Assembly (NCBI GenBank): GCA_019671135.1
Contig: JAHRHY010000023.1
Location: forward strand, 1 to 64,000
Origin: Linnemannia hyalina
Taxonomy: Eukaryota; Mortierellomycota; Mortierellomycetes; Mortierellales; Mortierellaceae
Direction: 5' to 3'
DNA length: 64,000 bases
In this document: piece by piece, positions 1 through 14,954 of the stretch
Numbering within the stretch: the first letter of the stretch is position 1
Layout: every line of letters starts with the position of its first letter
The notes under the pieces: model-generated
Databases searched by the model: none
The model's input: the letters and a program-made list of their open reading frames with translations, nothing else
Told to the model about the DNA's origin: nothing
Translations under genes and position numbers: made by a program

Positions 1-1060
1 TTTCGCTGGATACGAAACAGAAACCATTGGCATCACATCTGCAAAAAAAAAAAATACAGGGTCAGTTCAAGAGGGCTTCCATTGGCTGGAAGCTCTTGTG
101 TCGAGTAGATCGTTTTGTTTTCTACTAACCTCCGTTTTTTCAATCAGCGTCAATGGCTACTTCTGCTAATTGGAAACTCGATGATGATATTTGCATGTAG
201 GAAGGGTATGTGTTTCACCTAGTTCCTCCAATATTTTTTTTCCTTGACTCAGACAGCCCATGGGAGGAAAGAGAAGAGAGAAGCCGAAAAGCCTGTCGAG
301 AAGTTACTCAGGCTTTGGAACAGATACCATACATAGATTGGGGGTTCCTGATCCTGATCTCCCAAACTATCAATCGCCTCTTTGCCTTCCATCGCCTCTT
401 TGCCTACCATCGCCTCTTCGCCTTCCGTTACATCCTTTCTCCATAAAGAATGAACCGGAGACAACCAGCATTGTTAGTCAAGGGCCATGGAGAGGGACCA
501 TAGGTGGGACCCCCGGCCGGGGCCTTCCTTCATTGTACACCAATACTGTAGTGCACAAACAAAAAAAATCCGTGAAACAGAACCTCATGCGCTCTTGTCT
601 TGATGGCCCATGCGGAAAAATTTACAAACAAAAATAAAAGATGTGATGTGTGATACCTTTTTGTCTGAGATGACTGGCATGGTCAACGTTGGCACCCATT
701 TTTTTTGTCCACAGGGAATATTTCTTCCTCTCCTGACGTTGCGAGAACCCTCTTGAGTCATCAAGTACTCGTCCTTATTTGCAACTCAAAAAGTGTATAA
801 ATCAAAGGAAAGGGGCGAAAGGAACAAAGATAATTGTACCATATGGAAAAATAGTTGGACGTTTAGCCGGTAAAACCGTAACCCATTTCCCTTTAGCCTT
901 TTTTTATTCTCTCACTTACTCTCCTTTTCTCTAGCCCTTTTGGTGGCAGTTGCATAGCAATGCCAAAGCTGCCCTAGAATTACGAAAAGGGCCTACAATG
1001 AAAAAATAAGGGTTACCTTTATTCCAAAAGCACCATCAAAAGCAAGAACCCTCCTTCGAC
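1..1060. other. Left-edge spacer, no convincing gene
   Basis: I see no supported gene here. The first 45 bases can be read on the plus strand as FAGYETETIGITSA, which resembles the AGxET motif of a cytochrome P450 I-helix, but the frame runs into an A tract and then a stop, so it could be the end of a gene lying outside the window, a remnant, or chance. Open frames around 210-640 are low in information and include a short tandem repeat. The 640-1060 stretch is AT- and pyrimidine-rich and holds the 3' flank of the Serinc gene. Confidence 0.4.
373..426. repeat. 18-bp tandem repeat, three copies
   Basis: Three head-to-tail copies of an 18-bp unit beginning ATCGCCTCTTTGCC, with one or two differences per copy. 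18 bp keeps the reading frame, but the surrounding frames do not look like a conserved protein. Confidence 0.75.
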
Positions 1061-3094
1061 CTAATAGTCCAAGAACCGGTCAGGGAAGATAACAGGGGCC
1101 AAGAGGGAGAATGCATAGAGGCCATAGCAGATCCAAGACGAGATGACCTTGACCCAGACTGCAGGCCAACTCTGACCAATCAGAATGAGATTGTCGCTTC
1201 TGCCGTCAACTTCTTGGAAGTTGTTCCAGTTGGTGAGGACCATCGAGATGTACATCGCTGCAAGGGCGAAGACGAGATGGAAGAATGTATAGTTGTACTG
1301 GCATCCAAATTTTTCGTCGTCCTTGGAGTCGTACTCCTCGTCATCATCGTCATCTGCATCATCCAACGCAGACACAGGAAGCGCACTATGTCATAAACGT
1401 TATACAAGTCAGTATTAATGAGAACAAATGGGGTTTAAGAAAGGTAAGAAAAAAAAAAAGGTCATGGAGGAGAGACTCTTACCCGCTCTCGACGGCGGCG
1501 AGCAGGGCATCGGAGCGACGCATGGAGGATCCAGTAGGCTGGTTGTTGACGAGGGGTACTGCAGAGTCCGAGTTGAGAGGCGCGTAGTCGCCACTGTTGA
1601 TCATGGCTTTTCCTCCCTGAGTCGCAGCCCTGGAGGTTGAGTAAGCAACGGCAAGGAAAGTAAATATAGCTCCCATAAGAACTGAGGTCGTCCTGGTGCC
1701 CCTGGCCTTGCTCAATGGGTTACAATTAGTACCCTCATCCGGCTCATTTGCAACCGCGCTGAGGACCAAGTACGCACAATAGATGACCACCATCGACGAC
1801 TGTGCGAGTCCAGATCGAGGGTTCGCCTCCTGAACAGCCGGCAAGACCCCAATCACTGTCACAGCCACTCCCAAGACAAGGTTAAAGGTGATCCAGAAGA
1901 TGTTCATGTTGCAACCGTCGCTGGCGAAATACCCGTACATCACCCCTGTCAAGACGATGGCTCCCAAGTACATGATCAACGTTGATCCAACAAGAATGAA
2001 CTGCCACTTGTTGGTGTCGCTCTGTTCCCATTTGTCCATACAGGTCTCGCTCCATGTGTGGGCAAAGTCGACGAGGAGGATGAGTCCAAAGAGGATAAAG
2101 ATTCCTGCGCCAATCAGTGCCACATAGTTGCCGTAGAACACAAAGAACCCTGTAGGAATAAAGAACGAGGCCACCACCAGTGCCATCCAGACTAATACTT
2201 TAGGACCCCACCATCTAAAGGCACACGAAGAATATATGATGGGTCAATAAGATGGTGTATCGCAAGTAAAAATCAGAATGTAGGGCAAGTGTGGGATGCA
2301 AGCCTATATCCACCCCCTTAAGTTTTTTGTCGTCGTCGTCTATTGATTGCATTGCTCTTTGGTTTGTACTTACCCATTCTGAACTGCCGCCCTTTTTGAC
2401 CGTGAATCATGCACGCCAACCAACAGTGCGCCAAGAATAAAGTGAAAGAGGGCCAAAGCAAATCCAACACGCTGAACCTATTATTTGTATTGAGCCAAAG
2501 CACGTTGTAAGATGTCCCTTCTTGCTTTCCAAGTCCCTCGTCATGGTCCTAAAGGCAAGCATGAAACCAGGGTGCACATACCCCAAAGGCTCCATAGCAG
2601 GAGTTGTCCTCGCAGTTGAGTTTTAGGTATCCGTGCGTGATACCCTCGAGTTGTTTTGAAGCCCATTCTGAAAGCAGGATCCATGCGAACTACATTCGAA
2701 GAGGACACCAAAGTTAGTGTGGTTCTTGGAAGGGGCAAGTCAAGCAGCAATAAGCGAGATGTAATAATGGTGCGGGCTGAGTAGGAGGACGACGAGGCAT
2801 AACCTACCAATGAGTTGACAAGCATTATCAACTATAGTGAAAAAAACGAAGGAAGCGTCAGTAGGCAATAAAGATACACAACAGCGTCTATATATATGAG
2901 TGTATGTATGTTTTGTCGTTTGCTACGTAGCTGAAGAGAGAACTTACGGCGTATCCGACGCGGGTGGCGATGGAGTTGTTGCAGTTGCATGAGCGGCATG
3001 CAAGGGAACAAGCAGCGGCGGAGAAGCATGAGGCGAGGATGGAGCCCAGACTGCCAAGGGCAGGCAAGGCGACACAACTCAAGACTGCTCCCAT
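1061..3094 (-). CDS. Serinc/TMS1 family multipass membrane protein
   Basis: Serine-incorporator (Serinc/TMS1) family protein of the endomembrane and plasma membrane; the family is linked to lipid handling. Six exons: 3094-2948, 2831-2808 (only 24 bp), 2689-2582, 2477-2374, 2214-1483 and 1385-1061. They sum to 1,440 bp, 479 residues, the usual family size, with all phases closing. The N-terminus MGAVLSC and the following cysteine-rich segment (CNCNNSIATRVGYA) are family hallmarks, as is NGWWGPKVLVW across the exon 4/5 junction. About ten hydrophobic helices alternate with short loops. An acidic stretch (DDADDDDDEEYDSKDDEKF) precedes the last two membrane segments, which end in FLDY. The ATG was chosen because MGAV is conserved at the start of the family. 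The product of serine-lipid incorporation is debated in the field, so only the family call is firm. Confidence 0.93.
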
Positions 3095-4559
3095 ATGAGT
3101 CAAAGTTGTTCTTGTTGGCTGGAGAGAGAAAGTGTGTGTTTTGGTGGCGCTCAGAGGTGTGAGAGGAGAGAAAGAGAAAGACGGATGAGGTGTTGTAGTT
3201 GGTGGCGTTTGAATGAGAGAAGTGAAAGACGATGAACGTTTGGGTGAACAACAAAAGAGACCCTTGACTTGGCGGGTAAAGAGAAACAGTGCGGACAATG
3301 GCAGAGTTAGATCACGTGACTAATTAATGATCACTGGTCAAGCAACATTTCTTTCAAGTTTCAACCCCTTCGATCATCGACCCCTTTATCGCCTTTTACC
3401 CTTCTCTTCTTTCTGCTTTATCCACTAACGGTCTCGCGGCTTCGCCAGGATGTACATAAAGGATGTAAGAGTGAAATTGGTACGAAGAGGAAGAAAAAGG
3501 ACCTCTGCAACACGTCGTGTTCCTTTATTGATCACGACGCGTTCAAAAAAAAAAAGAACAGGATGTTGTTCAAGATGATCGATGCTTGTCCACTTCTTTT
3601 TCCTCTTGCTATGAATCAATATCATTCAAACCACGACACAACCATGGGCAGGACCTCTCTCGCCATACAGCGCTGTAGCAATGAACAAAGGAAGATGAAT
3701 GGTGATGAATAGCATGACCTGCTAACTAAAATATACTTCTCTGTTTCTATGCTCCCTTCCTTGCGTTCCTTTTCTAAGGGTTTTCGATGGATATACTCTT
3801 TGCCCTCTTCTTTCACCCCATTTTTTTTCTCCTTTGCCAGCTCCATCCGCCTTTAATCATTTTTATGTAAAGATCCAGGCGCTCTGCTTGTGTTTGAATG
3901 TTGTGTGTTCCCCACAACTCAGTAAAACCTAGCGCTCTATATGTTTTTAAAAGCTGTTTATCTCTCACAATCCTGTACAAGCCTGGAGCTCATTAAGATG
4001 TACTTCGCCCTTGTCCACAAGTGAAAAAAGAAAGAGAAGATAAGATAATACTCCTTCGCCACCGCACACACACATTGAAAGCCGTTGTTGGCCCAAGACG
4101 ACAAACAACAAGGTCCTCATATCCCTCTCGGACAAATAAACGAGGTAAGCAGTTTTTCGCTGCCACTTCTGGATACTTCGAGGCAACGTCGTTTTTTTCT
4201 CCTTTGATCAAAAGTGAAAAGTGAGGGTAAGAAGGAGGTGAAAACCCAGAGAGATTGTGAGAGAATTGAGACAGTGAAAGAGAAGGAAGAGAAAGGGAAG
4301 TACTCACCCTTAAGAAATTGATAGCCAAGCAAATTCTCATAAGGTTGCTCGCAGAAGGGAAAAAGGCGCTGTCTCTACCCTGGTGAAGGCAATTGCACCG
4401 AAGAGAGAAATCGACGGGCTTAGGTTTTTTATTGTCTATTTCATCCAAAATTTAGGATGTTTTGGTTAATCTGAGGTTTACTGATAGCAGACTCCGTAGC
4501 AAATCATAAATGGGAAACAAGCAGATGGGAACTTACATAAATCTAGCTAGGCTAGCTCA
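3095..4559. other. Spacer between Serinc gene and Fanzor stop; possible omega-RNA zone
   Basis: The 3095-3400 part should contain the Serinc promoter. The rest shows no protein gene: a 151-codon minus-strand frame at 3993-4448 begins with TTG and is low-complexity. Because guide RNAs of TnpB and Fanzor nucleases arise from sequence overlapping or following the 3' end of the nuclease gene, roughly 4200-4560 on the minus strand is the place to look for one. I see no diagnostic RNA fold beyond a small palindrome at 4545-4557. The left end of the transposon must lie somewhere here, but I cannot fix it. Confidence 0.4.
4545..4557. repeat. 13-nt perfect palindrome just 3' of the Fanzor stop
   Basis: AGCTAG and CTAGCT arms flank one central base, three bases past the Fanzor stop codon. 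It could form a minimal hairpin or be a protein-binding site; its short length means chance cannot be excluded. Confidence 0.5.
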
Positions 4560-7500
4560 TCAGCAGCGTCGCGGGAAGCCATTGTTGTCAATGGGTCCGT
4601 TGTCGAAGTGCTCGATGTTTTGTTGTGTTCCAGTAGCGAGAGACTGGGGTTCTGAAGGGGTGGCGCCCTCTGGACGCGTTGATCTCCTGTAGGGAGGAAG
4701 TGGCTGTCTGTTGTCGCTCATGATTGTCGTGAATCCCGCAAGTGCAATGTTGACACATGCATTGCTGTCCCTGCCTCGACGTGCATAACCGGCGCGGACA
4801 CTCTCACAGTTGGGGTTTTCGCACTGAACCGCACCGTTGATTGTGACCAGCTTCTCGACTCCGTTGACAAGTCTCAGTTCCTTGACGAGGCGTAGAATCG
4901 CAAAACAAAACGGACAGACTTTGCTTGTCATGTTTTCATCGGTCATCAGTACAGGGACGGAGAGGGCATGTTGCTCAACGACCTTTTTTCCGCCGTACTT
5001 TAGATGACCGCCAATGCGACTCCCGGTTCCGATTCCTGCCGTCCCGACGAACATGATAGGGATGATGGGCAACGCATCTCTGGGGCATTCCTGTGGATAG
5101 GTGAGTGCCCTTCCAACGCGGATTGGGAGGTGGTGTCTACCACACTTGCAACACCCATCGATAGAGTCGACTGTGTTGACTGATGCTGGTTGGGTCTGTC
5201 CTGTTCCTATCAAGAAAACAAAAATAAAAGTACGTTTTAGTTATTTGAATGCCCATTGGAGTTAACAACAAGGAATCAATGCACTCCGATTCTTAAATCC
5301 ATAAACTTACCTCTGGAAAAATCCTGCATTTTCCGTCGTTCGTCGGCTGCGATCGTCTGCCATGCTCGCTGCAGTTGAAGATCCTTGTGGTGGGTTTGTT
5401 TCACTAAGCTTTTGCTGCCCTCGAAGTTGCGAAGGGGTTGTGTAGCTGATCGTCGGGTCACCTGTGCAGAGTCAACTTCACTGATAGTCTGCGCCTTCAA
5501 AACGGAGTTTTCTCCTATCTCCTTGTGAAGCTCCGAAATCCTCTGATTTTCCGGCTGTCGAAGCAAACGCTCCCTTGTTCGAGTCGCCCTACCTACTCCA
5601 CCGACTTCTTTGACCTGTTTTGCGGTGATGCGGTTGGACTTGGCAAAACGCATGTCCTCGATCGTTGCCTTCCGGGATAAAGAGCCAGTTATCGTTATGG
5701 CGTTCCGAGTCCGTTCTGGAAGAGATGACGCTTTCGATTCTGAATGCAGAGAGGGCTGGGTGTCCGTGCCATCAATGTCCATGTCCACAGCATCAGCGTG
5801 AGAGGTGGGCGGCTCTGAAGCCCCGTCGTCGTTGCCGGTGTGGTGAGTATCGGGATGACCTATAACGTCAAATGAAACGCCGTAGGAAATTATTGCATGA
5901 AGACACGATCTTGATATGATAGAGCGACAGTAGTAAAGCAGAAAAGAAAACATACCATGGAGAATATAGTATCGGTTTGATAAAGATTCCAGAGTTGACC
6001 ACAAGGAGGGGACAGTCTCAGACATAGTCACCAATCCTCTGTCAGTGCCTGGTACAGGTAGTTGTCGGTCCTTGTCTTCAATTTCTAACAGTAGCTGCTT
6101 GATGGAGGTTGTCTGAACAAAGTCTTGCATCCCAGGATGTTGAACAGTTGGGACAGACTCTGTGACAGTCGTGATGGGCAGGGGAGAAGGGTCTTCTGAT
6201 AGTGCTGTTGGGGGGGGCGGTCGCCTTGGACAACCTGTTGTAATAGTAGCGTTGCTGCTTCTTTTCCCGGATCTCAGCCTCGAGAGGAACGATCTTCTTC
6301 TTCAGGTTGTTGACGACTTTTCGTGCCTCCTGTAGGTTCTGGTAGATTCCCTTTTTGTGTCTCTGGTCGTGTCCTTCATAGTGACGAAGGGTGCGGTCCT
6401 TTTCTCTCCTGACCGTCGTGGCTGCCTTGAGGCCCTTCTTGAGGGGTTGTAGCTCTGTGACCAAACGATCCTGAACAATCTTGATCTCCTCCGACGCTTT
6501 GGCTGCAGATTGAGGGGTGTGCCCGGTTTCCAGTAGTTCCGACGTCCAGTTGATTACACCTGATGGCTTAACATGCTTCTTCTTCTTGTCTTCGTACGCA
6601 CTGTTGGTGAAGTGGCGGTTTGGTCCCGTTATCGCCCGTCGTCCCGTGATGCGTACTGTGTAAAAGTCGACGTACGTCATTCTATCATTTTACAAACAAT
6701 GCACGGTAAACTGTTATTCAATTGACTCATGATGGTCATAGATATGAATGAGGAGAGGTCATATTCAAGACCTTATGTATGCATACCTTTGTGCGAACTC
6801 AAGTCCATGTTTCGTGCAGGCATCGTCGATGATGGCCATATTGAAAAGTCCACCGAAAACATATTTGCGATGATCGGTAGACAGTCTCGCGACGGTCGAC
6901 GTGGTGATTACTCGACCACTTGGGCCCTTGATATCGAAGCGTCCTGGTGCTCGCCCGCCAAATATGTCATACACCCCTGACGCGTCCAACGGCACAGCAT
7001 GCCGATTCCCAACAGCAGGAACTGGGCAAATCCTACGGGTGAAATCCTTGTATCCCGCCGATCTCAAGATTGCATTTGCAATATACACAAACGGCCCCAA
7101 AGTCAAGACGCTCTTTGGATAGGAAGTTGACTGGGGTCCTGAGTGGGCCTTCTTAGGGGTAAACGGTCTCAGTAATGTCACTAGCCGCAAGACGGCCAAA
7201 ATCTCCTCCGTGCTGTACATCTCAGGCTCGTAGAGCTTCGCCTTGACTGTCTCTTCGGTGATGGGTATGTTCGAGTCTGGCAATTCCAGCAACCTGATAG
7301 CTACTGCTTCTAGACCTCGGAGCTTCTTTGATGTCGGCTCCTTTGGTCCTACGGTGGAGAAAAAGGAAGTGAGAGATATTAGTCAACAGTTAATACCACA
7401 AACTCAGCAAGGAGCAGCGTCCGATATTAGTTATTGGTACCTGTTGAGGAGCGTGCCACAGATTCAGACGGACCACTGCTCTGAGCCTCTGCATTAATAG

Positions 7501-10096
7501 AGCGACCGGCATCTGACTGCTCCTCCATGACCCCCATCTCGCAATCTTGATCTGCTGTGTGAGTGCAAGGCATTAAAACATCATCGCTGCTCTTGCTCGA
7601 GCCCGAAACAACCAACTCAGTATCCATATCGTCGTCTGAGTCGTCTGAGCCGTCAAACTCCGAGTCCGTCTCGTAGTCGTCGCTTTGGGTGAGTCCACGT
7701 GACTTGTTCTGCTCCTTGACTCCTGGCCGCCGCTCTTGATGGATGTCAATGAGCCCGAAAATCTTGTTGATGCGCTCCTCGTCTCGACTAGTATCAAATG
7801 CGTGATCAAGTTGATTGAATAGGTCCTGGTTTCGCCTTTTCCAGTTCCTCAGGGACTCTCGACGCTTTTGGCTTGCCGATGCCGACGCCTCCTTCATCTC
7901 CTCGGCCTTCTTGATAGCACGCTTCCGCTTTTGGATGCGGTGTTTCTCCTCGCTCTGGGGTCGTAGATTGAGTCGGAGAACATTGTGCACCACGTACCGT
8001 CTCAACCTCTCGTAAATGTCTCCAGACCATATCATCTTGATGTTCGTAGCGTACTCTCGCATGAGTGTGGCCGTCAAGCCCCCCAGGCTTTCCTTCGATG
8101 AGTCCTCTGACTGGTATCCGACCTCGACATTGGCATCAGCAGCAGCATAGGCATCATCCACAGCGCCGGAACCAGAGGCTTGAGACAAGCTTGGAATGAT
8201 CTTGAAGGGGTTGGATGAGGGTGAGTCAGGATGCCTTGAATCATCCCAGGCTTGTGGTACCAGCTTCCCGCTATAGATGCTTTCAAGCACTGTATCCCAC
8301 AAGGGGTGGGTGGTAGTCTTGGGGGTCTTCCTCGCACGTCTCAATTCTGGAATCCGAACTCCAAGGTACTGCAAATAATCCTGGGATAGCAAGGTTGCCG
8401 GATCCTTCACTCGGGGCTTCAACTCCGTAGCATCGGATACAATCTGTTGCCACTCCGGAGTAATGACTCCCGCTTCCACGATCGGGTTCTCCTTGAAGTA
8501 GTCGTCCCTGATATCAAAGGATGGCGGGAATATGTCAGCTAGGTTAAGCTGTATGCTTCCTTGGATGCCACCGCGACAGATCTAGAAAGTAAACACGGTC
8601 GTGATAACATATAATATTAGTTAACTTGAAATAAATATGTCCTTGCGCGACCACAACCAAGACAGAGAATGTTGAAAACATACCCATAGTGTTGTCTTGT
8701 ACGCTCCCATGGCAACGGATTCCATAAAGTCAGACACCTCACCCTGTACGTCGTTTAGCCTCTTGGTGATGTAATCTTGATCCTTCGTGGGGAGATCCGT
8801 CCTGAGCAGCTTCGCAAGAGGTAGGGTAATAGTGCGAATGCTGTTGTCATCCTGGGCGTCGATGTCCGATGGGGTTGGGGCGATAGTTGTTGAGTTTGCT
8901 GAAGCAACGGTAGGATCAGATATGTGGTCCTGTTCCTCGATCCATGCCATGTCAAAGTGTCTTGATAAGGCCGCCTTATATGTCGCTAGAGCTCGTCCAG
9001 TAACGGTCTGAGGTTCTCCAATAGGGTGGGTAATCATCATCGATGCGTGATGGTTGGTAAAGTCCTCTTCGTCGTTGATGCCGCAGTGTTGGCGAACGCG
9101 TCGAGCAGTTTCATTCATGACTCCCCGAGGCGTTCTTACACGTTTCTCTTCCGCTTGCTTTGCATCAATATGTGCCTTCTCCAATGCTTCCCTCGGATCT
9201 GCCTCCTTCTTTGCACGCTTCTTCGCCGTGCGGCACTGATCGGCCGCCTCCTTCTTGACTCGGGCCTCACTAAATGATTTTTTTTTAAAAATATCAAAGA
9301 CAATCAATAAAGAAGTAAAAATCAAACAAAAAAAGTCTAAAAATCATTCACATAGTAGACATCAAAACACACCATTCCTCCTTGTAGATGGTCTCTAGTG
9401 CGACCCTGTCGATCTCGCATCCTTCTCTCTGCTGGCGCGGTCGTTTGGCGGTTCGGAATGTCGCGGCAGGTCCTGGTGGAAGTGGTAGAGACGGGGGTGT
9501 TGGTGGCCGTAGATCAATGAAAAGATCGTCCTGTTCCGTACGAGTTGGTCCGAGTACATTGTAGTCCGAGTATCCCAGAATTGACGATGCATCATGAAGA
9601 ATACCGACAACTCCTTTTGGATAGGGATGGGTGATGACAATGGGGCGGGCGGCGGTGTCAAACAGGAATATGTTGATGTGCAATAGTGCTGAGATGTAGC
9701 GAAGAAGAAAGCTTGAAGGTGGAATGGGATATGTGATGGTGTTTTCCTGGTTCCTCCAAAGCACCAAAAATCCGGTCTCGTTCCTCTCACCACGCTCCGG
9801 TGTCCATGAGCCATCCAAGATCGCAATGATAAGCCGTGCAAGAGAGGGTGTTGTGCTGAAATTTAATGCCAAGTGGTGCTTGTTGATAAAGCGAAAGGCG
9901 ACGGACGCTTGACCCTGTGCTATGGGTTGGGCCTCTGAAGCAATAAAAGCTCCTCCTAGTCGCTGATATAGATCCCCATTGAATCCCTCGTGCAGGATTT
10001 GTTCTGCAGCCTCGTTAACGAACTTCCAGTCCGGCATAAAGGAGTGCATCTGCTTCGTAGTAGTTAAAACAGAACGGAACAATATGTTGTGAGTAC

Positions 10097-10139
<43 letters not shown>

Positions 10140-10199
10140 AACGCAAGGTGATGAACGTTCATGAACTGTTTTACGTACTCCAGGGCTGTTGTCGCTCAT
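4560..10199 (-). CDS. Giant Fanzor (eukaryotic TnpB-like) nuclease, eight exons, one frameshift
   Basis: Predicted RNA-guided DNA endonuclease of the Fanzor/TnpB family. Exons: 10199-10179, 10049-9373, 9269-8684, 8581-7441, 7348-6787, 6681-5956, 5859-5311 and 5206-4560. They total 4,909 bp, exactly one base over a whole number of codons. The extra base maps to a run of eight C (6210-6217), after which the frame continues open to the stop. Corrected length is about 1,635 residues, far above most Fanzors. Near the C-terminus lie RuvC-I (PGTDRG, D~1209), a segment GTAGIGTGSRIGGH, the alternative RuvC-II glutamate in TDENMTSKVC (E~1511), a zinc ribbon (C1518, C1521, C1549, C1554) and RuvC-III GRDSNACVNI (D~1567). 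Residues ~790-1150 include basic helical and coiled-coil stretches; 560-690 are acidic. The first ~500 residues match nothing I recognise. The first intron is in frame and holds a CT repeat, so its removal is inferred. The C-terminal family call is strong; a single gene for all eight exons is likely. Confidence 0.85.
6210..6217 (-). other. C8 homopolymer where the Fanzor reading frame breaks
   Basis: Upstream of this run the coding frame uses codons starting at positions with remainder 2 modulo 3; downstream the conserved frame leading to RuvC-I has remainder 1. Seven C would restore one open frame. No good intron spans the point. It may be a true disabling mutation, a homopolymer read error, or a slippery site. 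Confidence 0.7.
10101..10135. repeat. CT dinucleotide microsatellite in Fanzor intron 1
   Basis: Uninterrupted TC repeat of about 17 units. If the intron were retained it would encode an RE dipeptide repeat, which argues that it is spliced out. Confidence 0.9.
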
Positions 10200-10830
10200 G
10201 ACGGATGTCGTCGTCTTTGCAAAGAGAGTGTGCTGGTGGTGGTGGTGTTATCGTTCGTGTGTCACGTTGGGAAAGTGAACAGAAAAGGTTGAGTGGGAAG
10301 AGGAATGTGTGGAATTGTGGGGGTTATCCACATAAGGTTGGTTTATAAAAGTCACGTGACACATATGGGTTTATCCCCGTCGGCATAGGCACGGTTTTAA
10401 ACCGATAGGCAGCCTTGCATAATTATTTTTTTTCTGGCGGAATCATCCACATGGGACGCATGCATGTCACTCCATTCTTCCCTCTTTCTCCACTCCACAT
10501 CGCCACATTAGCCTCATTCAGACAAGCCCACACCCCAATCTTCCCTCTTTCTCACTTCACATCGCCACATTAGCCTGATTCAAACAAGCCCACACCCCAA
10601 TACACATTACACACACCCCCCCCCCCCCAATACCCGACTAATTAATGACACGGGTAAGCTAAAGAGGTATTTGCACAATTGGGGCGATATGTCCTGTACC
10701 TGATTGGCATCCACCATACCACCATACTTACTATTTCGTTCTATTGTTTTATTGTTTCGCGTTAAACAAGTCGTGCAGCTTTTCTGTTAAAGGCAAAGCC
10801 ATAGCACGAAACAAACGGCAGCAGACGAGC
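10200..10830. promoter_or_regulatory. Divergent promoter region of the Fanzor and recombinase genes
   Basis: This 631-bp gap separates the two start codons and must drive both genes of the element. It contains TCACGTGA (an E-box-type palindrome) near 10350, the near-palindrome CGGTTTTAAACCG near 10393, a 62-63 bp tandem duplication at 10477-10601, and a C tract near 10615-10628. GGTTTATA and CACATATG motifs also appear here and again past the recombinase stop near 14290. No transcription start can be placed by eye. Confidence 0.55.
10477..10601. repeat. 62-63 bp direct tandem repeat, two copies
   Basis: Copies at 10477-10539 and 10540-10601 both begin CTTCCCTCTTTCTC and both contain CACATCGCCACATTAGCCT and AAGCCCACACCCCAAT, with about six differences. 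It lies within the divergent promoter and could be a duplicated binding region for the recombinase or for transcription factors. Confidence 0.9.
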
Positions 10831-13800
10831 ATGCAAGGCAGCCAGCCGGCAAGAGCAAAATCTAAGCTGGAAACCTACCGCGAACGCAATAGGGTTGAAC
10901 AACAAAATCACCTCTGTAATAAGCAGAAGGAGCTAGCAAGCTCCCATCTTGTGGCCGAAGCTCGCAAGTCCTTGCAAGCCCAGTCGACGCGGGACCAGTA
11001 TGATCGGTACCAGGAGAAGTTCATGGTATGGCAAATTGTAAAATGTACCCCCATTTTTGCACAAGCATAGATAAACTATGGCCCCCGACTCGACGCACTA
11101 ACTAACTCAATCACTCCATCCCTTGGTATAGGAATGGTGCGACGTTTCTGGATATAAGGATGATTACAACGTCACGAAAGGCAAAGTAACCCGTTACTTT
11201 GCTTGCCTGACCTGCGAGACGGAAGATCCTCAAAACGGTATGAATATGAAAAATGGAACTAATGTGAGCGGTCATACGATACGACGACGACGACGAAACG
11301 CTATGGTGGTGTTTGAAATTATAAGAACTAACGAAAATATAAATGCAATAGGTATCATACGGATCAAACCGTCGCCAAGAGACAGGAAGGGCAACAACAG
11401 CAAGGACAAGTCCGGCGAACGGCGGGCAAATATGGATGACCCGTGTTCTGATGATGATGTCGATGGAGGCGATGTGGAGGACAAAAGCGATGACAACTGC
11501 GAGGGGGACGCCAGTCGAGACGTTGACATCCACAACAGCAACAATGAGAACAGTGAAGAGCGGTGGTACTCGACGGCAACCATTCTCTTGCACCTCGCTG
11601 CCATTGGCGACCTCTATAAGCATCAGTGTGAAGACAGGAACAATTTAGCGATGGATTATGGCACAGTTCCGGCCCCGAAGACGTACATTCAACCTCTGAT
11701 CGACGTTTACCGCGTGAGGATGTCCGCCAGGAAGAGGTCGACAGATACCGACTTTGGCTCTATCGACTTCACCCAGAACCCAACTTCGATTGTTCGGCAG
11801 CTAATGAAGCGATTTTGGATGCGCAATGTGGAGGGCGCAGCCAGCTTGAGAAAGCGCCGCTTGAAAGGGTTACGCGACCGTGCGGATGTAAGTCTTTGCT
11901 TTTTTATGATGTTCCGCAGCGAGGTCACACGCCAGATCCGACTCCCGGATCTTTTCGCCCACGACGTCGAGCCCAACCGCAACAAAAATACGAACGATGC
12001 CAGCTGCAGAGAAGGCCAATTCGTGCTTGGAGTTGTGCTGATGATGAGGCAAGGCAAGACGAACAAGGACGGCAAGATTCAGTATGGAGTTGCAGTTCGG
12101 AACAAAGAAGTAGATGTGTGTCCAGTTGGCGCGCTAGCCTTTTATTTGCTTGAGCTTTGGTCGGTAAGTGGCGTGCATGTGGTAAATGTCGGCGGCCGAC
12201 GCGTGGTGTCACTCATATTTCAACACTCATTTAATAATGCGTTCTTCCCCCCCCCCCCTCTTCCTTTTTTTTGCTGTACTAAGAGCAAAAACAAAAGGGC
12301 GCCTGATCTCACCAACCCTAAATGGACCGACTACCATCTGTTAGCTGGAAACAAACCAATGGATGTACCGATGACTTACAACTCCCAGTTCCAGGCGCAG
12401 GTGGAGGCTCTTCATGAGAGCGGGATATTGGACAAGGGCACAGTGACTCACCTTGGGCGCAAGCACGGCTCCAGATTCGCGCATATGTGTGGATCTACGG
12501 TAGAGGCGATCGCTAAGCACGGGAACTGGGCATCGAACCGTCTCTCAACTCACTATCTCGAGGGTGTAGAGCCTTCAGTGGCCCTTCGATTGGCTGGATT
12601 TGACCGCGACCGTCTAGAGCGCTTTTGGCTGGCTCGGAACACTGTGATCCCCAGCATTGAGCTCCAAAGGCAGTTGTTCCCTTTCATCGAGGATGCTTGC
12701 TCCGACACGTTCTGGAGGCTCACGATTGACAACATTATGCGTGACTGCGACGTTTTCCACGGACGCGAGGAGTTGCGTGAGAAGCTGCGACGGGGCGAGT
12801 GCAAGGAAGTCAAGCAGGTGTACACGGACAAGGATATGCAGACCGTTCTGTCGAATGAGGTCATTTCAAGAAAGCGCCATCTTAGCCTTCTCGCCCACCT
12901 GCGAAAGGTTATCCTTCAGGATGCAGCTGTCATCCTGTTCGGGGGTGGTGCTGCCGCCGCGCACCCTGTTTTCGATCACCCTGTCTTCAAAACACCTGCG
13001 TTTCAAGATTTCCAGCAAACCCTACTCGAGAGCATGAGAAATCCCTCTCCTCTCACGGATTCCCTCGCATCTGCCACACCCATCATCCAACTGGAGTTTG
13101 ACAGGGTCGGCGCGAGGCTCGGTGTCCAAGATGCTGCAATCCGGAGCCTGCAGCAAAGCCAGCAAGCCGGACTTCAGAGTTTGCACGCCGGTATGAATGT
13201 TCTAGCAGCTACTTTACAAGCTCAGAATGATAGGACAGCATCCGAGCTGAAGGACTTGAAGCGGTGCATTGGCAACAATGACAAACTGGCAGGCAACAAG
13301 CGACAATGTTTGAACAAGGATGCCGTTCGATCTCAGTTGATGCAAGCTCTCAAGTCAACGGTGGAAGCCGTGGTGGCGATTAGCGAGGACGATGAGGTGA
13401 ATGTCAGTGACGACGTCAACGGCAGTGCAGCAAGCCAGAGTACCACTATGGCTACCGCCATCGCTCTTCTTCAGCTTCCAGAGCCGGACGCTGGCCAGCA
13501 AGAATCAAGACCTCCGACTTCTTCCACTGCAGTTCTTTCAAGGGATGCGCACCGCCGCGCAGCTCTGGCCGCTTTCAACCCCAGCGACAATGTCGAGGAC
13601 AGAATGCGACAAGTAGCCGTCTTAGTCGCCGACGAGAAGAGGGCGAGAGGAGAGACCCAACACCATATGCCCCTAATGCCCGAGTGCAAGCTGATCCCAC
13701 GACCGAATACGCTCGACCAACTGTGGCAAGAGTGGTTTTACCACGGCGTCGATGGGTCCCCCTCCATCGCAGAGCTTAATAGGTGGTTCGGATCAGCGTG

Positions 13801-14014
13801 GCGAGGCAAAGATGCACAGCTCTACAAGTGGAAGAAGGACATTGTACATTCGGTTCTGCGCTCTATCCCAGCTGGCTTGCAGGTTGACAAGTCCGCCGTA
13901 AACAATGCACTTGCCTTCGTAAGAGGGCAAATCGATACTGTTGGTTCAATTGATAAATACTACAAGGCTCTTCCCAAAGCACCCTCGAGAAAGTACCCAA
14001 AGAGAAGAGAATAA
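10831..14014 (+). CDS. Crypton tyrosine recombinase with GCR1_C DNA-binding tail
   Basis: Site-specific recombinase expected to excise and integrate the surrounding element. Four exons, 10831-11025, 11132-11237, 11352-12163 and 12284-14014, add to 2,844 bp, 947 residues, with phases closing and no stop. The N-terminal helical region contains KFMEWCD across intron 1. An acidic low-complexity stretch follows (about residues 125-155). The catalytic set is R289 (MFRSEVTRQI), H427 and R430 (THLGRKHG), H450/W453 (KHGNW) and nucleophile Y462 (THYLEG), the order expected for Crypton recombinases. Residues ~833-905 (LDQLWQEWFYHG, SAWRGKDAQLYKWKK) look like the GCR1_C fold typical of fungal Cryptons. 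The start ATG at 10831 was preferred over an in-frame ATG 87 bp upstream because the added residues look like leader. It is divergent from the Fanzor gene. Confidence 0.93.
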
Positions 14015-14954
14015 ACACCATCCTTGGTCTATCACAGTGTTACATGTCAGCTCGCTCTACATATGGTTAGGAGCAGGGTGAGGGCAAAGCTGAGGGAAGG
14101 AGGAGAGAAGAGGATAGTAGAGAGGGGAGTAGAGAGAGTGATGATAGAAGGACCTAGGGATAGAGGGAGGGAAGAGCAGAGAGGAATAGAGAGCAGAGAG
14201 TGTGATGTAAGCAGGAGGGCAACGCAGTTCTCAATGTGTTCAGGCACAGGCACGAGAGGAGAGGGCACATGAAACAATCTATTCACACATATGTGACTGG
14301 TTTATAACTGTCTATCGTGCTCGGAATAAAAAAATCTATAAACCATTATAAGCCGCTAATCTGCGTATAATGTAGTGGGGTTGTCGTTCAGTGTCGTGTA
14401 GAAAAGGGAACAGATGTATAGAATGTGAAGGGAAGAAAAAAAGAGATCGAGTGTTGTCTTTCTGAAGAGAGTGTGTTGTGTGTGTGTTGGTTAGGTGCGG
14501 GTGAGGCTGGAGAATAGGGTATGCTTTTCGCCAGTATCAACTTCGCTTAATTGAATAGGCCTTTTTGGCTCGCACTTTTTATACCAAGAATAACATTGAT
14601 CATAAATTGATAATTTTGCGTGAAATCCACTATAGTATTTATTGGATTGTCCTTTTTCCCTCTGTTGTTGCGCCTTTGTTCTTTCCCTTGCAGAAGACGG
14701 AGGCAAACAAATTCACACTCTCTTATTCACAAGGAACACACCAACCAACGATAACCGTATCAGCATTCATTAGCCTACTCAACAGACTCAGGACAACCTT
14801 TGCACCCCCGGAAAATACAGAGAAAACAGAGGACGATGCTCCGTCCTGGCGCTTACTACCGTCGTCGCCGCCGCTTCACTCCTGTATTATTACACCACCA
14901 CTCTGCCCCACCAACAACAACACTCTCCTTTCATACAAACAACACCACCTCGAC
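14015..14954. other. Spacer holding the element's right end and the ASE1 promoter
   Basis: A purine-rich GAGAGG stretch spans about 14080-14200, followed by an AT-rich part with an inverted repeat at 14298-14345. The right boundary of the transposon is probably within 14050-14450. Past 14500 the sequence becomes AC-rich, as is usual before starts in this window. No gene is supported. Confidence 0.5.
14298..14345. repeat. 9-bp perfect inverted repeat near the right end of the Crypton
   Basis: TGGTTTATA (14298-14306) and TATAAACCA (14337-14345) are exact inverted copies 30 bp apart. GGTTTATA also occurs in the element's internal promoter. It could be a hairpin terminator or part of a recombinase site. 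Confidence 0.6.

Follow-up and report, generated by a model that had tools for sequence, protein, structure and literature searches.

The Crypton-Mariner fusion MarCry-1_FO of Fusarium oxysporum was reportedly described by Kojima and Jurka in 2011. In the accessible part of the source it is a CryptonF within a TA-flanked inverted-repeat element, which has a DDE transposase and moves as a unit (PMC3212892). The stretch analysed here, the first 64,000 nucleotides of contig C16 (the window), belongs to a 51.5-Mb genome of 50 contigs, whose matching proteins are labelled Linnemannia hyalina. It contains a similar arrangement: a CryptonF lies inside a TA-flanked inverted-repeat element, and the composite moves as a unit. 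Compared with MarCry-1_FO as presented in that text, the outer element has a gene of Fanzor type instead of the DDE transposase, and the same genome also holds solo Cryptons and the empty site (PMC3212892).

Fanzor1s have already been stated to be associated with Crypton recombinases (PMC10711439, as far as the available text goes), so their co-occurrence as such is known. Among described elements the Fanzor1-only Tc1/mariner transposons such as PUl-4 (Bao and Jurka 2013, PMC3627910) likewise combine, in the portion of the paper at hand, a Fanzor1 with mariner-type repeats and flanking TA and have no transposase. Compared with the PUl-4 type as described there, the L. hyalina element encodes a 1,635-amino-acid DRG protein with an over-long spacing between RuvC-I and zinc ribbon and a score below the Pfam cut-off, and it has a nested Crypton and a one-sided flank motif. 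MCi-2A of Mucor circinelloides also has a Fanzor with a Crypton-like coding sequence; according to the same portion of that source its Crypton protein is truncated, it has 11-12-bp duplications and no recognizable inverted repeats, and its class was left open (PMC3627910). The TnpB elements of the IS200/IS605 and IS607 groups differ in their transposase; the presumed likeness, judged from the accessible text, is that target motif and guide lie at opposite ends, although for L. hyalina guide and cutting would be predictions (PMC10711439). In none of the papers listed by a literature search, which covered few subscription papers, was a Crypton seen inside a Fanzor element. The locus is a new combination of known parts and no new kind of element.

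A Crypton nested in a Fanzor element

Nine intact solo copies of the recombinase gene were found in the genome, and all of them align only to window positions 10320-14372/3. The composites align to the window over 4427/4429-14634/14641, apart from the copy at C23:1306867, which is identical to the window in its left flank as well. In the Fanzor element at C49:2114158 the sequence before 10320 is joined directly to that after 14372, and the same join is present in the Fanzor element on C20 (Table 1). Because the solo Cryptons keep their own ends and the C49 and C20 elements have an empty Crypton site, the Fanzor element is the host and the Crypton the insert. This is the reverse of the first-pass annotation, which had read the locus as a Crypton carrying a Fanzor gene and had itself named separate boundaries of the two genes as a refutation; the outer ends, unlike those of the Crypton, consist of inverted repeats with flanking TA. 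The pairing itself stood, since the two genes occur together and have moved together, but the Crypton is not the carrier. It lies upstream of the Fanzor gene, about 120 bp from the start codon. The start codons of the Fanzor gene (10199) and of the recombinase gene (10831) are divergent and 632 bp apart, a layout that is a product of the nesting.

In all eight copies whose last Fanzor exons have identical translations, the recombinase lies at a distance of 6-9 kb and the arrangement is the same. Beside the C20 Fanzor copy a recombinase is present in another arrangement: one of the nine solo Cryptons abuts the left tip of that element. No recombinase is near the C49:2114158 copy. The eight composites of the assembly have seven distinct left and seven distinct right flanks, and the composite has therefore moved as a unit. 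The nested Crypton was probably inserted once, since nested recombinases are closer to that of the window (two copies, 99.65% and 99.86% identity) than the nine solo ones (98.96-99.17%).

The tyrosine recombinase with R-H-R-W-Y residues and a GCR1_C tail, reported earlier on the plus strand, was recovered as a CryptonF gene. Its open reading frame matches Pfam NDC10_II (expect value, E, 3.7e-20) and GCR1_C (E 3.1e-9), and all five residues, presumably the catalytic set, could be located. The stretch near amino acids 365-392 is probably an intron, because four of the eight composites shift frame there.

Ten solo right junctions, from the nine intact copies and a C44 Crypton represented by two end pieces only, were read; a broken Crypton on C18 was excluded. 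The left junction was TATTGC and the right junction TATAATG in all ten, with a core overlap that was similar, not identical. Three right junctions lie at the tip of a transposon designated element E (these three may not be independent events), two at a miniature inverted-repeat transposable element (MITE), MITE B, and two at the two tips of another MITE. The remaining three lie at a Fanzor element, in a second Crypton family and at a tip-like sequence found only once. The assignment of junction L040 is based on a 46-bp common stretch and tip similarity. The nested Crypton was inserted 260 bp inside the outer element, not at its tip.

Other Crypton-like sequences were also seen. In locus L084 the left end of a second Crypton-like repeat is TATTGCGGGG, whereas six other copies (L083, L085-L089) adjoin a different repeat that ends in ATAATG; these are possibly Cryptons joined end to end. 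At C49:1547501-1555000 (L055) and C1:4112501-4121500 (L056) a distant tyrosine recombinase gene is accompanied on its own strand, at 1-4 kb, by an exon with a Cas12f1-like_TNB (TNB) domain. They are possible further Fanzor-Crypton pairs and were not used as evidence.

Table 1. Predicted features of the composite element and its flanks in the window
Feature	Position	Strand	Remarks
Left flanking TA	4430..4431	.	TA in 7/7 distinct composite left flanks
Left terminal inverted repeat TTGTCTATTTCATCCAAAATTTAG	4432..4455	+	16/24 identical to right end
Fanzor exon 8	4560..5206	-	Relocated RuvC glutamate (TDENMTSKVC, E 4935-4937); four-cysteine zinc ribbon (4914-4916, 4905-4907, 4821-4823, 4806-4808); RuvC-III RD (GRDSNACVNI, D 4767-4769); 8 genome copies with identical translation
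Fanzor exon 7	5311..5859	-	Splice-consensus model
Fanzor exon 6	5956..6681	-	RuvC-I GTDRG (D 6041-6043); frameshift in window copy
Fanzor exon 5	6787..7348	-	Also in L. gamsii P0004
Fanzor exon 4	7441..8581	-	Splice-consensus model
Fanzor exon 3	8684..9269	-	Splice-consensus model
Fanzor exon 2	9373..10049	-	N-terminal domain, no Pfam match
Fanzor exon 1	10179..10199	-	Start codon; short exon from splice consensus alone
Nested CryptonF	10320..14372	+	Homology of 9/9 intact solo copies runs from 10320 to 14372/14373; empty sites in C49 and C20
Recombinase 5' exon	10831..11025	+	ATG; GT..AG intron 11026-11131, read by eye
Tyrosine recombinase with GCR1_C tail	11132..14014	+	Open frame; R 11915-11917, H 12449-12451, R 12458-12460, W 12527-12529, Y 12554-12556
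Right end region of outer Fanzor element	14373..14632	+	Directly follows Fanzor upstream region in C49 and C20
Right terminal inverted repeat	14609..14632	-	Pairs with left end
TA and flank motif GTATTT	14633..14640	+	Consensus K-Y-A-T-T-T; side opposite Fanzor 3' end

The Fanzor-type gene and its relatives

The multi-exon gene annotated on the minus strand between 4560 and 10199 was borne out, and its GTDRG, TDENMTSKVC, four-cysteine and GRDSNACVNI motifs were all found in the model (Table 1). By splice consensus the gene has eight exons, separated by seven introns of 92-129 bp, and in the sibling copy on C1 it is translated without a stop into 1,635 amino acids. An L. gamsii protein (P0004, 71% identical) spans most of the exons, including one omitted by the deposited model P0001. 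In exon 6 of the window copy a one-base difference in homopolymer length, common only to the C23:1306867 copy, shifts the frame; at that position eight of the ten copies in the genome have no frameshift. Besides the eight identical translations of the last exon there are two at 96% and 94% (C20, C49:2114158), and the C49 copy, which has the Fanzor only, contains at least one stop. A comparison of C1 with C49 over 1,602 codons gave about 69 non-synonymous and 51 synonymous differences, codons with several changes being divided by a fixed share. The resulting ratio of non-synonymous to synonymous substitution rates (dN/dS), 0.42, indicates selection for coding function between these two copies.

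Three homolog searches, of which the first two scored the best 7,999 candidates and the third 1,111, listed six, three and four proteins, all labelled Linnemannia or Mortierella. Among the matches listed, the N-terminal 240 residues match only members of the own family. Two diverged paralogs in the genome lie beside tips like those of the outer element. One, at C49:135635 (51% identical), has the left tip of the outer element with three mismatches and the right tip with two; the other, at C1:1639150-1641446 (43-51% identical), adjoins the left tip with two mismatches, and its right tip was not found.

The last exon matches the Pfam family Cas12f1-like_TNB (PF07282) with E 0.24, below the cut-off, and the relatives match with E 0.01-0.29 or not at all. 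A profile-profile comparison of 11 divergent with eight canonical TNB sequences, the latter taken from the same genome, gave P 7.5e-6; none of 60 column-shuffled controls was as good, and the reversed profile gave P 0.44. The earlier proposal that the C-terminal domain is related to TnpB and Fanzor proteins thus held in this comparison, the direct Pfam match being weak. In a twelve-sequence alignment inspected by eye the glutamate, the cysteines and the RD are present in ten (P0007 stops short of the last exon and L021 ends before the RD), and the signature residues are conserved in the relatives. The published Fanzor pattern is, in the accessible text, D-X(125,275)-[TS][TS]-X-X-C4-X(5,50)-RD with an alternative RuvC glutamate (PMC10711439). 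In this family the order of the pattern, TSxxC, the four cysteines and RD are all present, with a spacing from D to TS beyond that range, and in all three full-length sequences a glutamate lies exactly six residues before CxxC, as in Fanzors with the alternative glutamate. In the C1 protein the aspartate, glutamate and aspartate of the signature are D1209, E1511 and D1567. Judged by these residues, the minus-strand gene is predicted to encode a divergent Fanzor1-type nuclease.

The genome is also rich in canonical Fanzor/TnpB-like genes: 91 matches to Cas12f1-like_TNB were found, and several families consist of near-identical copies. Four of these loci (L001, L004, L006 and L008) have a common stretch of about 100 bp, which lies some 250-300 bp beyond the match to the domain and might be where a guide RNA is encoded. 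A further Fanzor relative (last exon 39% identical) lies in an 8.7-kb repeated unit at C4:1084033-1092734 and in its C23 counterpart (L051-L054). This unit, which may be one element or nested, also encodes a DDE_Tnp_4 transposase (E 8.6e-25), which we take to be of PIF/Harbinger type; here the Fanzor lineage stands next to a transposase of a different class.

Ends and flanks of the outer element

The outer element (4432-14632) is 10.2 kb long with the Crypton and ends, as Tc1/mariner elements do, in imperfect 24-bp inverted repeats flanked by TA. The repeats agree in 16 of 24 positions (p 1e-4 with shuffled letters). The first 20 bases of the left tip occur in the genome nine times exactly and once with one mismatch, which makes ten Fanzor elements; 19 further matches have two or three mismatches. 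A query with the right end found the eight composites, the C20 and C49 elements, a tip at C14:800773 and a fragment at C33:567493, which was left out of the counts. Both outer tips resemble the two tips of a TA-flanked 160-bp MITE family (14-16/24, p 8e-5 to 1.2e-3). This family gave 29 matches including fragments, and TA was present at both ends in all 15 copies fetched, seven of which have one common flank pair, leaving nine distinct pairs.

TA is present on both sides of the composite. In five of five paralogous sites the right flank is derived from the target, with TTA in four. Among half-sites that lack the inserted element, L092 matches one insertion in its left flank and a second insertion in its right flank, the two matches being separated by TA; two others (L093, L094) have TG at the insertion point and are consistent with TA, which is clean in L092 only. 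When the joined flanks of ten insertions were used as queries, no empty site spanning the composite junction was found among the matches listed (40 of 91 candidates scored), and no target duplication longer than TA was seen by eye in the composite flanks.

Element E, which has a related tip and four copies, encodes a DDE_3 transposase (E 6e-30). The C14 tip is an exact 17-bp right tip, and 3.2 kb further in there is a weak match to DDE_3 (E 8.8e-4); no P0001 match was listed there among 31 scored of 110 candidates. Inverted pairs like the left tip, with three mismatches, were also seen at C6:1590057-1596135 and C50:45508-51302, where they are 6.1 and 5.8 kb apart and enclose no DDE_3 matches.

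At the end of the element that faces away from the Fanzor 3' end, the flank following the TA is conserved. In the nine distinct right flanks (TCATTT, TTATTT, TCATCT, GTATTT, TTATTT, GTATTT, TTATTA, GTATTT, TCATTT) K-Y-A-T is found in all and K-Y-A-T-T-T in seven. The C49:2114158 left flank, which has no TA, and the C14 right flank, beside which no Fanzor was seen, were left out of this count. The six positions hold 7.45 bits of information, which none of 20,000 random sets reached. Eight left flanks hold 2.67 bits, mostly in a single T (p 3.5e-4, in a simulation that used nine sequences), and the nine distinct MITE flank pairs hold at most 0.82 bits at any position. All five unoccupied copies of the paralogous repeat beside the C49 element have the same motif letters, and the motif therefore belongs to the target.

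Known Fanzor target-adjacent motifs include, in the accessible text, CATA for SpuFz1 and TTAAN for GtFz1 (PMC10432273). The 3' end of the L. hyalina gene, where a guide would be expected to start, is at the tip opposite the motif. It is conceivable, though we think it unlikely, that the nuclease has left its footprint in this motif: insertions would persist only beside a target-adjacent motif (5'-AAATRMTA on the gene strand), because only copies bearing it would be restored after excision. That the transposase prefers such targets is no less likely and is the easier account, because the bias is so strong in young copies. The C14 tip, with no Fanzor of the family listed beside it, is also followed by TA-GTATTT, which speaks against the footprint. 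If the footprint were real, it would be evidence at the genome level that a cut-and-paste transposon, together with its Crypton rider, is kept in place by a eukaryotic Fanzor.

Origin of the composite

From the separate boundaries, the empty site, the repeated movement of the composite and the signature residues of the nuclease family, the following origin appears likely. A Tc1/mariner-type element without its own transposase would have carried the divergent Fanzor1-type gene, and a CryptonF would have entered just upstream of that gene by tyrosine-recombinase integration. By means of its outer inverted repeats the 10.2-kb composite would then have spread as copies to about seven sites, mobilised most likely in trans by a Tc1/mariner-type (DDE_3) transposase. 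An RNA that reads from the Fanzor 3' end through the left tip and on into the flanking DNA there might serve as guide; the nuclease might then cut the vacated site, with the motif 5'-AAATRMTA (gene strand) on the opposite flank, and repair would restore the element, the Crypton benefiting as a passenger. The outer element is named here mariner-type and non-autonomous only.

Several observations weigh against this account. Of 58 DDE_3 matches, not one falls within the ten Fanzor elements, and the C14 match is below the Pfam cut-off and has two in-frame stops. To the tip of element E the left outer tip has a weak similarity (12/24, p 0.06) and the right outer tip a moderate one (13/24, p 0.005), and the right tip also weakly resembles the left end of the Crypton (11/24, p 0.02). 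The tips beside the paralogs are imperfect, the C49:2114158 copy begins after TC instead of TA, and the DNA to its left is foreign to the repeat on its right. Conservation of one flank only is unusual for a transposase that targets the symmetric TA. Concerning the nuclease, the RuvC-I aspartate is present in all three full-length sequences as DRG instead of DPG, and its distance to TS (304, 381 and 305 residues) exceeds the published range. No relative was found in the PDB by sequence or profile search. Folding of three Fanzor 3' ends gave z -0.80, 0.51 and -0.21, within chance, and an Rfam search found no guide RNA, although a structured RNA may well have escaped such searches. DPG is described, in the accessible text, as near exclusive in Fanzors (PMC10711439); we treat it as typical of them, not strictly defining.

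That the whole 10.2 kb is one Crypton with Fanzor cargo, its recombinase acting on the outer ends at 4432 and 14632, is a rival reading. The outer left tip and the Crypton left junction both start with TATTG, the right ends both finish with TATA, and the similarity of right outer tip and Crypton left end points the same way. The constant left core TTATT and variable right core of the composites could be those of a recombinase, and the solo Crypton integrated exactly at the left tip of the C20 Fanzor element indicates that the recombinase can use that sequence. Recombinase integration of the outer element, favoured at first on account of these cores, was weakened by the TA sites of the MITEs and by the outer inverted repeats, and was kept as a rival. 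We consider the single-Crypton reading unlikely, since nine solo copies show the Crypton with ends of its own and the Fanzor element existed without it in C49 and C20. The two diverged paralogs have similar tips, but no related recombinase was found among 49 matches listed (48 of 71 candidates scored), and the left outer tip agrees with the Crypton left end in 8/24 positions only (p 0.24). It is very improbable that the copy number was inflated by one locus repeated at contig ends. Two flanks are indeed duplicated: window 107-6740 agrees with C23 in two stretches, at 99.93% and 100% identity, the right flanks diverging from the element end on, and the start of C7 is 98.7% identical to C12 over 2.5 kb on the right side. 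The left flank of the window copy (window 1-4428) and the right flank of C7 are thus doubtful; the window case may be a contig-end assembly artefact, and exchange between copies is a possible source of duplicated flanks. Seven distinct left and seven distinct right flanks nevertheless remain after the duplicates are merged.

The nuclease may also have been an inert passenger, a Fanzor descendant without part in the spread of the composite. The frame-shifted window and C23 copies, two of ten, the stop in the C49 copy and the failure of folding and Rfam to detect a guide RNA would fit this view, but the dN/dS of 0.42 over 1,602 codons and the signature residues conserved in the relatives make it rather doubtful. 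That the gene encodes another zinc-ribbon protein and no Fanzor is improbable: the Pfam score, the lack of a PDB match and DRG in place of DPG would allow it, whereas the profile-profile result with its controls, the exact spacing of the glutamate and the RuvC-I aspartate in all three full-length sequences argue for a Fanzor. A mariner-type Fanzor element that gained a CryptonF is therefore our preferred account.

What Fanzors do in nature is an open question. With ten closely related natural insertions, some with and some without a Crypton, this family provides copies with open frames and a precise predicted target motif, and the idea that a Fanzor restores its element after excision is therefore directly testable. 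Because the solo copies of this Crypton lie mostly at the tips of other transposons, the L. hyalina Crypton suggests how Crypton-mariner composites such as MarCry may have originated.

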